Below are positions 12,653 through 25,557 of a stretch of DNA of 64,000 nucleotides, one piece after another; within the stretch, counting starts at the first letter, position 1, and every line of letters begins with the position of its first letter. This stretch comes from Parvularculaceae bacterium (lineage in GTDB: Bacteria > Pseudomonadota > Alphaproteobacteria > Caulobacterales > Parvularculaceae): contig JANQMJ010000017.1 in NCBI GenBank assembly GCA_028280115.1, forward strand, positions 124,001 through 188,000, read 5' to 3'. The notes beneath the pieces were generated by a model. The model saw nothing but the letters and a program-made list of their open reading frames with translations. It had not been told where the DNA came from and did no database searches. A program made the position numbers and the translations under genes.

Positions 12653-14338
12653 ATGCTTCAGTTTTCGAAATATCAGACCGCCGGCATTCTCGGACTGATC
12701 CTGCTCGCCGCGCTGTTCGCCGTTCCCAATCTTCTCAACGAAGAGCAGCGGGCGGCGCTGCCGGACTTTGTGCCGAAAACCACCGTCAATCTCGGTCTCG
12801 ACCTTCAGGGCGGCTCTTATCTTCTTCTCAGCGTCGATACGGAAAAAGTCATCGACGATCGCATACGCTCTCTTCTGGGCGATATTCGCCGTGAAATGCG
12901 TCCGAGCAGCGCGGCGGGGCGCGCGCGCATCGCTATTGAGAGCCTGACCTACAATCAGGAGTCGAACCGCGTCATCCTGCGGGTGGCCGATCCTGCCGAT
13001 CTTGACGAGGCCGATGAGCGGGTCCGCGACGTCACCCGCGGCGGCATTGGCGGCGCGCTTGGACTGGGCACCCGCGCCTATGCCGTGTCGAGGACGGGCG
13101 GACGCATCGAAGTGTCCATGACGCAGGAGGCGCAGCAGTTTTACGCCCGGGAGGCGGTGCGCGATTCCATCGAAGTCGTGCGCCGGCGCATCGATCCTGC
13201 CGGCAACAAGGAAGTGTCGATCCAACCCCAGGGCGCGGACCGCATCGTCGTGCAGGTGCCCGGCGATGAAGATCCCGAAGCTTTGAAAGCGATCATCAAC
13301 CGAACCGGCCAACTCAGCTTTCACCGCCATGATCCGAGCGTCAACCTGCAGGATGCGATGGCGGGCCTGGTGCCGCCGGGGCGGGCGTTATGCCCCATGG
13401 CCGAATTCGACGGCACAACGCGTCCGTCGCCGTCAAGCGGAGAGTTATGCGGCCCGCTTGATAACGCGTCGCAGCTGCCCATGGTGCTGATCGAGGATGC
13501 TGAAGTCACGGGCGACATGGTTGAAAATGCGTGGGCTGAGCAAAATCCCGACGGCGCGGGTTTTCAGATCAGCTTTCGTTTCGACAGTCGCGGCGCAAGG
13601 CGCTTTGCCGATTACACCCAAAACAATATCGGTTCGATTTTCGCCATCGTGCTCGACGGGGAGATCATTTCCGCGCCGGTGATCCAATCGGCCATTACCC
13701 AAGGATCGGGACGCATCACCGGCGATTTTTCCGTGCAGGAAGCATCGCAAACCGCGCTGCTCATCCGTTCCGGGGCGCTGCCGGCGGAGCTGACGACGCT
13801 CGAACAGCGCTCGGTCGGCGCCCAACTCGGCGCCGACTCGGTGCGCGCCGGCTCGATGGCCCTGATCATCGGCTTTATTGCGGTGATCATTTACATGGTC
13901 GTGTCTTACGGCCGGTTCGGGATTTACGCCGACATCGCCCTGATCGCGAACATTGTGCTGATCGCCGGCGTTTTGTCCTTGCTTGGCTCGACCCTGACAT
14001 TGCCCGGCATCGCCGGCATCGTCTTGACGGTCGGCATGGCGGTCGACGCCAATGTGCTGATCTTTGAGCGCATCCGCGAGGAGTTAAGGAACGGCAAGGC
14101 GCCGATCAACGCGGCTGAGACCGGCTATCAGAAAGCCTGGTCGGCGATCCTCGACGCCAATGTGACGACGTTTCTGGCGGCGCTGATCATGTTCCAACTC
14201 GGCGCCGGGCCGGTGCGCGGTTTCGCCATCACCCTGGCGGTGGGCGTGGTCACGTCGGTCTTCACCGCTTATGTGCTGACGCGCCTGGTCGCCGGAAGCT
14301 ATCTCTTGGGCCAGCGGCCCAAGGAAATGACGCTTTAG
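12653..14338 (+). CDS. secD: Protein translocase subunit SecD
   Basis: SecD and SecF use the proton motive force to pull secreted proteins through SecYEG at the periplasmic side. The 561-residue protein has an N-terminal membrane segment, the GLDLQGG motif near residue 50, a large periplasmic domain, and five C-terminal membrane segments containing VGMAVDANVLIFERI. The last codon is CTT and the stop TAG at 14336-14338 shares its final G with the first base of a 266-bp mobile element. Without the element the next base is also G, so the stop is unaffected. Length is normal. Confidence 0.97.
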   Translation: MLQFSKYQTAGILGLILLAALFAVPNLLNEEQRAALPDFVPKTTVNLGLDLQGGSYLLLSVDTEKVIDDRIRSLLGDIRREMRPSSAAGRARIAIESLTYNQESNRVILRVADPADLDEADERVRDVTRGGIGGALGLGTRAYAVSRTGGRIEVSMTQEAQQFYAREAVRDSIEVVRRRIDPAGNKEVSIQPQGADRIVVQVPGDEDPEALKAIINRTGQLSFHRHDPSVNLQDAMAGLVPPGRALCPMAEFDGTTRPSPSSGELCGPLDNASQLPMVLIEDAEVTGDMVENAWAEQNPDGAGFQISFRFDSRGARRFADYTQNNIGSIFAIVLDGEIISAPVIQSAITQGSGRITGDFSVQEASQTALLIRSGALPAELTTLEQRSVGAQLGADSVRAGSMALIIGFIAVIIYMVVSYGRFGIYADIALIANIVLIAGVLSLLGSTLTLPGIAGIVLTVGMAVDANVLIFERIREELRNGKAPINAAETGYQKAWSAILDANVTTFLAALIMFQLGAGPVRGFAITLAVGVVTSVFTAYVLTRLVAGSYLLGQRPKEMTL

Positions 14339-14603
14339 GCTGTAGTTTCCATTTAACGGTTGTCTGCGCGCCGGCGAAAAACCGTCAGTTTCAGGAGGGA
14401 GGACGAAGGACATGTTGGACATATTCGAGGACGACCGACGCCAAAATGGCGGTTTTTCGCCGCGCCCCTCGGGGGTTCGGCCAAAACCGCCCCTGACGGC
14501 GTCGGCAATGCTCGAAAGTGGTCCACACTTCCTTGCGCTTGCCTCCTGGTCAGGAGCGATTTTGGTCTCGAACGCAGATAAGCGTTAAATGGAAACTACA
14601 GCC
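14338..14603. mobile_element. 266-bp MITE-like element with terminal inverted repeats and TA duplication
   Basis: The left end GGCTGTAGTTTCCATTTAAC (14338-14357, plus a further G) and the right end (14583-14603) are perfect inverted repeats of 21 bp. The match continues inwards with two mismatches to about 31 bp (14338-14368 against 14573-14603). The dinucleotide TA flanks both sides (14336-14337 and 14604-14605), as left by elements that duplicate TA. The inside holds no transposase; an open frame of 58 codons (14412-14588) ends within the right repeat and resembles nothing I know. This looks like a non-autonomous derivative of an insertion sequence, perhaps IS630/Tc1-like by its TA target, which is an inference. 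It separates secD from secF. Confidence 0.8.
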
Positions 14604-14620
14604 TAGAGAGCGCGCCGGTC

Positions 14621-15601
14621 ATGCATTTCAAACTTGTCCCCGACAATACGAAGATCGCGTTCACGCGCATGCGCATGGCCGCGGCGGTTTTTTCAGCCGC
14701 CTTGATCGTCGGCTCGATTTTTTCCCTTTATGCTTTCGGGTTGAATTTCGGCATCGATTTTCGCGGCGGCGTGACGATCGAAGTCGCCGATTCCGAACCG
14801 ATCGATCTCGGCGAAGTTCGCGCCGCGGTCAGCGGGTTGGGCCTTGGCAATGTCAACGTTCAGAACATTCGCGATTTCGCAGGCTCCGAAGAAGCCGTCG
14901 TCGTCTTCATCGAACAACAGACCGTCGAGGACCTTCCCGAGGGCGTCGATCAGGCGACCGCGAATGAAGAGGCGCAGCAAGAGGCGAGGGGACAAGTTCT
15001 CAGCGCCTTAAGAGAGTTGCTCGGCGACGACATGGAGGTGCGTAAAATCGACGTCGTCGGGCCCACCGTGTCCGGCGAACTGATCCGCAAAGGCGCCATC
15101 GCCGTGGCGCTGGCGATCGCCATGATGCTGCTCTACATCTGGTTCCGTTTCGAATGGCAGTTTTCTCTCGGCGCCATCATCGCGCTGATTCACGATGTGG
15201 TCATCACGATGGGCATGTTCGCGGTGACGCAACTCAAATTCGAGCTTGCGATCATTGCGGCGATCCTGACCATTGTCGGCTATTCCATGAATGACACGGT
15301 CGTGGTTTATGACCGCGTCCGGGAGAATCTGCGCAAATACAAACAAAAACCCCTGGCCGACCTGCTCGATCTTTCGATTAACGAGACGCTGTCGCGAACT
15401 TTCATGACCTCGGTGACGACCTTGCTGGCGCTGATTGCGCTGGCGGTGTTCGGCGGCACGGTGCTGCGCGGGTTCACCCTCGCCATGATCTGGGGCATCC
15501 TGATCGGGACCTATTCCTCGATCTTTGTCGCTTCGCCCTTGTTGCTTGCGACCGGGGTCAAGCGCGACTGGTCGAAACAACCCGCCGCCGCGACGCCCTG
15601 A
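14621..15601 (+). CDS. secF: Protein translocase subunit SecF
   Basis: 326 residues: an N-terminal membrane segment, FGIDFRGG near residue 45, a periplasmic domain, then five membrane segments with GYSMNDTVVVYDRVREN, the SecF signature. It partners SecD. Removing the 266-bp element would put its start 16 bases after the secD stop, the usual tight arrangement. The element now forces either transcription through it or a new promoter. The first codons (MHFKLVPDNTKIAFTRMR) match typical SecF N-termini. Confidence 0.97.
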   Translation: MHFKLVPDNTKIAFTRMRMAAAVFSAALIVGSIFSLYAFGLNFGIDFRGGVTIEVADSEPIDLGEVRAAVSGLGLGNVNVQNIRDFAGSEEAVVVFIEQQTVEDLPEGVDQATANEEAQQEARGQVLSALRELLGDDMEVRKIDVVGPTVSGELIRKGAIAVALAIAMMLLYIWFRFEWQFSLGAIIALIHDVVITMGMFAVTQLKFELAIIAAILTIVGYSMNDTVVVYDRVRENLRKYKQKPLADLLDLSINETLSRTFMTSVTTLLALIALAVFGGTVLRGFTLAMIWGILIGTYSSIFVASPLLLATGVKRDWSKQPAAATP

Positions 15602-23994: not shown

Positions 23995-25536
23995 ATGAAC
24001 GAGCCCATGAACAACGCTCCCTCCGCTGCAACCATGACGCCCGGCCGCGCCGGCGCGGCGCACGCATGGCTGTCGGCCTCGCCGGCCCAGCGGCTGCGCG
24101 CGCTGATCGGCGCCGTCGCCGGTTTTGCGTTGGCGTTGGCCTTGACCAGCGCGGGCGCGGACATGCTCAACGACGCCGATACGCTCTGGCATATCGCCGT
24201 GGGCCGCGACATCTGGCTGAGCAAAAGCTTTCCCCATGTGGACCTCTATTCCCACAGCTTCGCCGGCGAGCCGTGGATCGCCAAGGAATGGCTCTCGCAG
24301 ATCCTGCTTTATGGCGCCTACGCCGCCGGGGGCTGGAACGGCGTCGTGGTTTTGACCATCGCGGTCATGCTGGCGGTGTTCGGCCAGCTCTATTTTGCGC
24401 TGTCATCGCGGATCAAGCCGATCGTCGCCGCCGGGCTCGCCGTCGCCGCGGTCGGGATCTGTTCGACGGTGGTGCTGGCGCGGCCGCATATTCTTGTCCT
24501 GCCGTTCGTCTTTTTGTTCGTCTGGCAATCCTGGCGCGCCGCGGAGGAGGGACGCGCGCCGTCATTCTGGCTGTTGGCGGCGATGTGCCTGTGGTCGAAC
24601 ATGCATGCCAGCTTCACCTTCGGCTTCGTCGCGGCGGGGCTGGCGTTTTTGCACTACCTCTTTGAACATCGACAATTCCGGTCCGGCCAGACCTATCGAT
24701 GGATCGCGTTTTTGGCGCTGTGCCCGGTTGCGTCGATCATCCATCCCTATGGCGTCGAGGCGATCTGGTCGACCATTTCCATCGCGCAAAGCCAGGCGCT
24801 GCCCTATGTCCTCGAATGGCGCGCATTTTCCATGAGCAAGGACATCGTTCCCGGACTGATCATCCTCGGATCGATCGGCGCGGCGCTGGCGAGCGGCCTG
24901 CGCGTCAGGCTTGTCGCGGCGGCGTTCATCTGCCTTCTCCTCTATATGTATTTCACCCATATGCGGTTCCTCTATCTCTTGTTTATCCTGTCGCCGGCGC
25001 TGCTCGTCAAAGACGTTGCGGCGCGGTTTCCGGCGATCGGTGTCGAGCGCTGGAGGGGGGAAATTTCGCAATCGGAGTTCGAACGCGCGCTTGTAAAATA
25101 CGCGCCGCCCGCGATCGCGGTTTGCGCCGCCGCCCTTGGCGTGCTGCTGATCGCCGCCTTGAGCGTTGCGAAATGGGCGCCGGAGCGGACCTATCCCATC
25201 GCGGCGATCAATGCGGCGCGCGCGGCGGCTCTGAGCGGCAATGTCATGAACTTTTATAATTTCGGCGGCGCGCTGATTTTCGAGGGCGTGCCGACCTTTG
25301 TCGACGGCCGCGCCGACCGGCTCTATCAGCAAGGCTTCATCCCCGATATCGACAAGGCAAGGCGCGGCGACCGCGACATCTTTGAGCGCCAGCTTGAACG
25401 ATACGATATCGCCTGGACGATGTTGCCGCCGGCGGACAAGCGCGTGGCGATGCTCGATGAAACGCCTGGATGGACGCGCATCTATGAAGACGAACGCGCC
25501 GTCGTTCATGCGCGCCGCGAGGCGGGCAAGCGTTAA
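23995..25536 (+). CDS. Polytopic membrane protein, probably a GT-C-type glycosyltransferase fold
   Basis: 513 residues with about ten hydrophobic segments and a soluble C-terminal part. The first periplasmic loop reads NDADTLWHIAVGRDIW, then YSHSFAGEPWIAKEWLSQ; near the end there is VPTFVDGRADRLY. An acidic first loop with a long membrane bundle is the layout of GT-C enzymes that use lipid-linked sugars, and proteins with this D-x-x-WH loop belong to that group. Donor and acceptor are unknown. Its final three codons and stop (AAG CGT TAA) lie inside or beside a solo end of the mobile element found at secD, so the C-terminus may have been created by an insertion. Confidence 0.72.
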   Translation: MNEPMNNAPSAATMTPGRAGAAHAWLSASPAQRLRALIGAVAGFALALALTSAGADMLNDADTLWHIAVGRDIWLSKSFPHVDLYSHSFAGEPWIAKEWLSQILLYGAYAAGGWNGVVVLTIAVMLAVFGQLYFALSSRIKPIVAAGLAVAAVGICSTVVLARPHILVLPFVFLFVWQSWRAAEEGRAPSFWLLAAMCLWSNMHASFTFGFVAAGLAFLHYLFEHRQFRSGQTYRWIAFLALCPVASIIHPYGVEAIWSTISIAQSQALPYVLEWRAFSMSKDIVPGLIILGSIGAALASGLRVRLVAAAFICLLLYMYFTHMRFLYLLFILSPALLVKDVAARFPAIGVERWRGEISQSEFERALVKYAPPAIAVCAAALGVLLIAALSVAKWAPERTYPIAAINAARAAALSGNVMNFYNFGGALIFEGVPTFVDGRADRLYQQGFIPDIDKARRGDRDIFERQLERYDIAWTMLPPADKRVAMLDETPGWTRIYEDERAVVHARREAGKR

Positions 25537-25551
25537 ATAGAAACTACAGCC
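25531..25551. repeat. Solo end of the secD-type mobile element
   Basis: CGTTAAATAGAAACTACAGC plus C matches the right end of the 266-bp element (14583-14603) at 20 of 21 bases, and the match extends to AAG before it and TAG after it. The flanking TA at 25552-25553 is present. No partner end is found nearby, so this is a relic. It contains the stop codon of the upstream membrane protein. Confidence 0.75.
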
Positions 25552-25557
25552 TAGCGG

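Follow-up and report, generated by a model that had tools for sequence, protein, structure and literature searches.

A transposase-free inverted-repeat element on the secD stop codon probably belongs to a Pseudomonadota-wide family with a common hairpin core

The 266-bp element that lies between secD and secF in a Parvularculaceae genome is, with high probability, a non-autonomous transposable element and a member of a family distributed across the Pseudomonadota. Its hairpin core, which consists of a covarying stem and a conserved head, recurs in elements of distant genomes that have other ends.

Results

An inverted-repeat element occupies the secD stop codon

In the window (the whole 64,000-nucleotide stretch of DNA analysed), an inverted-repeat element without a transposase occupies positions 14338–14603 of the plus strand and is flanked by TA at 14336–14337 and 14604–14605, the right TA being the target duplication. 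The left terminal inverted repeat spans 14338–14368 (plus strand) and the right one 14573–14603 (minus strand). Perfect 21-bp inverted repeats with TA on both sides, as described in the original prediction, were confirmed from the window sequence: the repeat is perfect over the outer 21 bases, and the longer inverted arms at 14333–14368 and 14573–14608 (36 nt) are 92% complementary. The ends of the window element read GGCTGTAGTTTCCATTTA; allowing three or fewer mismatches, the window contains three occurrences of the 19-base end, versus none in 100 shuffles. Between the repeats lie hairpin A (14372–14462, plus strand), which comprises an outer stem and a conserved GA-rich head and is recognised by the models R1 and R2 described below, and hairpin B (14478–14568, minus strand, 42.5 bits on that strand), which repeats the hairpin in diverged and inverted form. 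The calculated folding energy of the element strand is −158 kcal/mol (z −12.3). No sigma-70 promoter was found within the 266 bp.

The insertion is carried by the stop of secD (12653–14338, plus strand). The left TA doubles as the first two bases of the TAG, at the place where congeners have their native stop, and the element's first G supplies the third; because this G restores the TAG, the SecD protein is unchanged. When the flanks are joined through a single TA, the TAG is restored and secF (14621–15601, plus strand) lies close downstream, as had been predicted for excision. The further claim that the element splits the sec operon holds as a matter of spacing, with 266 bp and one TA added between the two genes and secF moved ~268 bases away from the secD stop. 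Its role at secD is probably limited to that of a long, structured spacer within the secD–secF messenger.

The element is multi-copy in its genome and absent from relatives

A genome search for further copies and ends, proposed with the original prediction, yielded six complete copies: five measure 266–267 bp, and the sixth, at 333 bp, contains an additional module. About eight more copies are truncated at contig boundaries, and several ends occur alone or in part. The cores of the six complete copies diverge by 5–12%. Arms belonging to the same copy agree at 106 of 108 positions, compared with a mean of 93 when arms are swapped between copies; only 4 of 720 swap permutations (0.6%) were equally good.

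Several of these copies and remnants have noteworthy surroundings. A solo right end from this family (25522–25553, minus strand) lies elsewhere in the window, where another frame terminates: its TAA serves as the stop of a 509-codon frame, and it adjoins an sspB-like gene located on the opposite strand. A left-end remnant of ~42 bases (C23:82282–82304 onward; L183:1750–1805) supplies a TAG at a frame end. An apparent terminator hairpin, GCCCGGCG...CGCCGGGC, has the C17 copy (L052:1549–1819) in its loop. Copies at L060:1–293 and L054:1512–1848 contain extra inserted modules that are partly self-complementary, and such modules make the element family a mosaic.

The secD–secF site was empty in all 19 congeners whose region matched. 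The native secD stop of these genomes, TAG or TAA, has nearly the same position, and secF begins a short gap after it, so that the comparison of empty sites came out as anticipated. A search of 59 relatives returned short matches at most, and none carried the element. End-like matches in five congeners proved to be a conserved coding stretch and were rejected, as was the sole occurrence of the exact 19-base end in a wider genome-contig collection, a chance-like place in a MAG. Taken together, the genomic copies and the empty sites of the congeners support the view that the element targets TA, is non-autonomous and multi-copy, and leaves SecD unaffected.

Insertions at stop codons

Comparison with relatives confirmed three insertions on native stops: in secD, in an ABC-2 permease gene upstream of the Hsp33 gene (the C5 copy), and in an SDR gene (a copy at a contig end). 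The same is likely for the genes of a D-Ala-D-Ala carboxypeptidase and of a GHMP kinase, placed to within one codon or through a single relative only. The C2 copy, unlike the stop-sited ones, removed a few codons from the end of a gene. For 20 of 50 copies, a frame of at least 150 codons has a stop made up of the TA and the base after it, usually the element's G, compared with 6% of flanking TAs, though some of these 20 frames may be insertion-cut or spurious and copies from the same genome are non-independent. This excess and the three confirmed native stops would be expected if stop codons were preferred targets. However, selection removes insertions inside genes, and stops already make up 14% of the window's stop and intergenic TAs. 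Since an inserted TA followed by G makes a TAG, while coding insertions are lost, stop siting is read here as tolerance and not as proven preference; that stop codons are preferred as such appears unlikely.

The hairpin core recurs between unrelated ends

A covariance model of hairpin A built from the copies of the window's genome (R1) matched 10 of 385 alphaproteobacterial genomes (277 genera), the window's genome included, often at several places per genome. With a refined version of the model (R2), matches were obtained in 10 of 398 Pseudomonadota genomes, half of the ten lying outside the Alphaproteobacteria. Most R1 matches examined are inside inverted-repeat elements, mostly of 246–270 bp and in a few cases of ~150–160 bp; nearly all of these elements have TA on at least one side, and their ends are unrelated between genomes. 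Over the family as a whole, TA-flanked elements with hairpin A are mostly 257–271 bp long, and others measure ~150–180 bp. The match in genome G226 is an exception, inverted-repeat ends not having been found there. The R2 matches that were read are mostly in similar elements, some of them without clear ends. Among the carriers of hairpin A are plasmids from Novosphingobium, Azotobacter, and Halomonas, the Novosphingobium plasmid element being TA-flanked and having the same interior with different ends. Copies from three other genomes gave no match in the plasmid collection, and Rfam covariance models gave none for the window at E values up to 1 and none for ten loci at E values up to 0.5.

Two further contexts were observed. 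A 16-kb viral contig (IMGVR_UViG_3300022695_000189) carries two copies whose ends are different again (L258:3050–3400 and L259:5150–5500), and in two other Novosphingobium replicons (L187 and L189, ~900–970) the right side of the element is replaced by an apparent tRNA 3' half.

Pairing is kept while the stem sequence changes

The fold of most full elements combines a terminal stem with hairpin A, a further small stem, and hairpin B; the head of hairpin B is located on the opposite strand. The head of hairpin A has an AGGAG...CGACGC-like sequence with G-A/A-G steps, and the outer stem varies freely with its pairing kept. In the hairpin A alignment 94% of cells are paired, compared with 64% in shuffles, and two-sided changes affect 25 of the 28 pairs; in a wider set of 35 sequences the paired fractions are 93.5% and 58.9%, respectively, and the covariation score is 0.836 versus 0.198. 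These core alignments were fitted to the structure of the model, which biases them towards pairing; in slid controls the pairing drops to 32–50%.

These data bear on whether the element is an ordinary recent MITE, i.e., an internally deleted insertion sequence with a junk interior, whose core is shared through an accident of descent among related MITEs. Such an origin would agree with the multiple copies, the flanking TAs, and the lack of a reading frame that is intact in all copies. Yet the core is common to genomes from different families and classes, with differing ends, and the outer stem has changed throughout with pairing still kept. Since an unconstrained interior would lose its pairing, this explanation is hard to hold, and we regard it as very unlikely.

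The strand of folding was assessed through mismatch counts that use no energies. In hairpin A, G-U outnumbers A-C by 24 to 9 on its own strand, while the corresponding counts are 22 and 31 for the ends and 13 and 17 for hairpin B; in the hairpin B region the opposite strand folds better in 20 of 23 cases. The pattern may reflect selection on single strands, either RNA or DNA. Because the copies are related and hairpin A was found by the model, the strand signal is suggestive and does not amount to proof. Strand-specific folding, together with the many copies at gene ends, would also suit an RNA regulator or 3'-UTR element that the host retains to control its genes and that spreads by transposition. 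The element does not, however, occupy orthologous sites where this was tested (the empty secDF site of the 19 congeners), and its occurrence between genomes is patchy, which leaves a regulatory role of this kind improbable. The core could, in principle, be a small protein gene, given an AGGAGG and an ATG ahead of a 58-codon frame in the window copy that is also open in several others, but single-base indels shift the frame in the C17 and C10 copies and the length of the apical loop varies by one base between genomes; we give this reading hardly any credence.

Ends of some members match IS5-family elements

A related full element had been expected elsewhere in the genome; our search there, which covered DDE_3 transposases, revealed no full-length insertion sequence with these ends. 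The genome's only DDE_3 (IS630-type) transposase has different ends and was rejected as a source. The window element thus lacks the match to the ends of a resident IS630 that would mark an IS630-derived MITE. A DDE_3 transposase had no match in four of eight carrier genomes, and where one was found it was without element ends.

TA-flanked IS5-family elements of 840–860 bp in Paracoccus liaowanqingii and Aeromonas, which encode DUF4096 and DDE_Tnp_1 domains, carry at both ends, with 1–2 mismatches, the terminal sequences of the Azotobacter (TAGGGTCTGTTGACGTTT) and Halomonas members. Paracoccus elements of the IS5/IS427 group are 832–865 bp long and have 2-bp duplications in nearly all cases (PMC3281130). 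In a test of end-likeness on a set of 16, where Azotobacter and Halomonas match by construction, the ends of the G530, G701, G694, G655, and G380 families resembled IS5-type ends (shuffle p ≤ 0.001, uncorrected), and the ends of the window element showed no significant likeness to them (p 0.36). The matching ends suggest that the Azotobacter and Halomonas members may be mobilised by IS5-family transposases. On two Azotobacter plasmids the element adjoins IS630-type sequence, once at each end (L256:2400–2717 and L257:2440–3910); the TA that it shares with the abutting sequence fits a common TA target.

Discussion

The secD element is most probably one member of a Pseudomonadota-wide family of non-autonomous transposable elements. 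A transposase supplied in trans would act on the ends; these would vary according to which transposase is locally present, the core staying constant. In Azotobacter and Halomonas, this transposase would be of the IS5 family. The hairpins may matter as folded single strands because one head lies on each strand. Points against this reading are the results for the window element, whose ends had no matching transposase in the searches made and no significant likeness to IS5 ends, the DDE_3 results in the carrier genomes, and the bias of the core alignments towards pairing; the reading also leaves unaccounted why a MITE would keep internal structure.

Short, multi-copy, and transposase-free, with terminal inverted repeats, a target-site duplication, and empty sites, the window element shares these attributes with MITEs. 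The IS5 family (IS427 group) and its derived MITEs likewise have TA flanks, and the ends of IS5-family elements are almost the same as in the Azotobacter and Halomonas members, whereas the window element family has a conserved double-hairpin interior and no transposase, and the window ends are unmatched. The nearest described kinds are CIR, Correia/NEMIS, RUP, and CGTC REP elements, and their descriptions set the window element apart. As described in PMC2229807, the CIR elements known from Caulobacter and Brucella (Chen and Shapiro 2003) are ~110 bp long with GANTC exposed in a loop; they too are intergenic repeats of Alphaproteobacteria that end in TA and have a pair of hairpin arms, while the window element measures 266 bp and has no GANTC. 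Correia/NEMIS and RUP elements are likewise non-autonomous, with TA ends and long RNA stem-loops, but are ~107–155 bp long, form a simple stem-loop, and occur in other hosts (PMC2229807). CGTC-tagged REPs are also palindromic, mostly alphaproteobacterial, located 3' of genes, and devoid of a transposase of their own; they are, however, palindromes of 20–40 bp with a CGTC tag and a CCA tail and are not described as TA-flanked long inverted repeats (PMC3733652), and the window element does not fall within that definition. No earlier description of the element family was found in the open-access literature searched, and strings of the head sequence led to no relevant paper.

A more far-reaching proposal, which we put forward tentatively and hold to be possible rather than probable, is that the elements form an undescribed superfamily, in which a strand-specific hairpin pair would move between transposase systems by swapping ends, the structure itself being propagated and read by a host or phage factor. 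The usual view of MITEs in bacteria is that they are passive remnants of insertion sequences. If the core fold is indeed kept phylum-wide while the ends change, some small mobile repeats would carry a selected function, and the hairpin core offers a concrete motif for finding the factor that reads the head.
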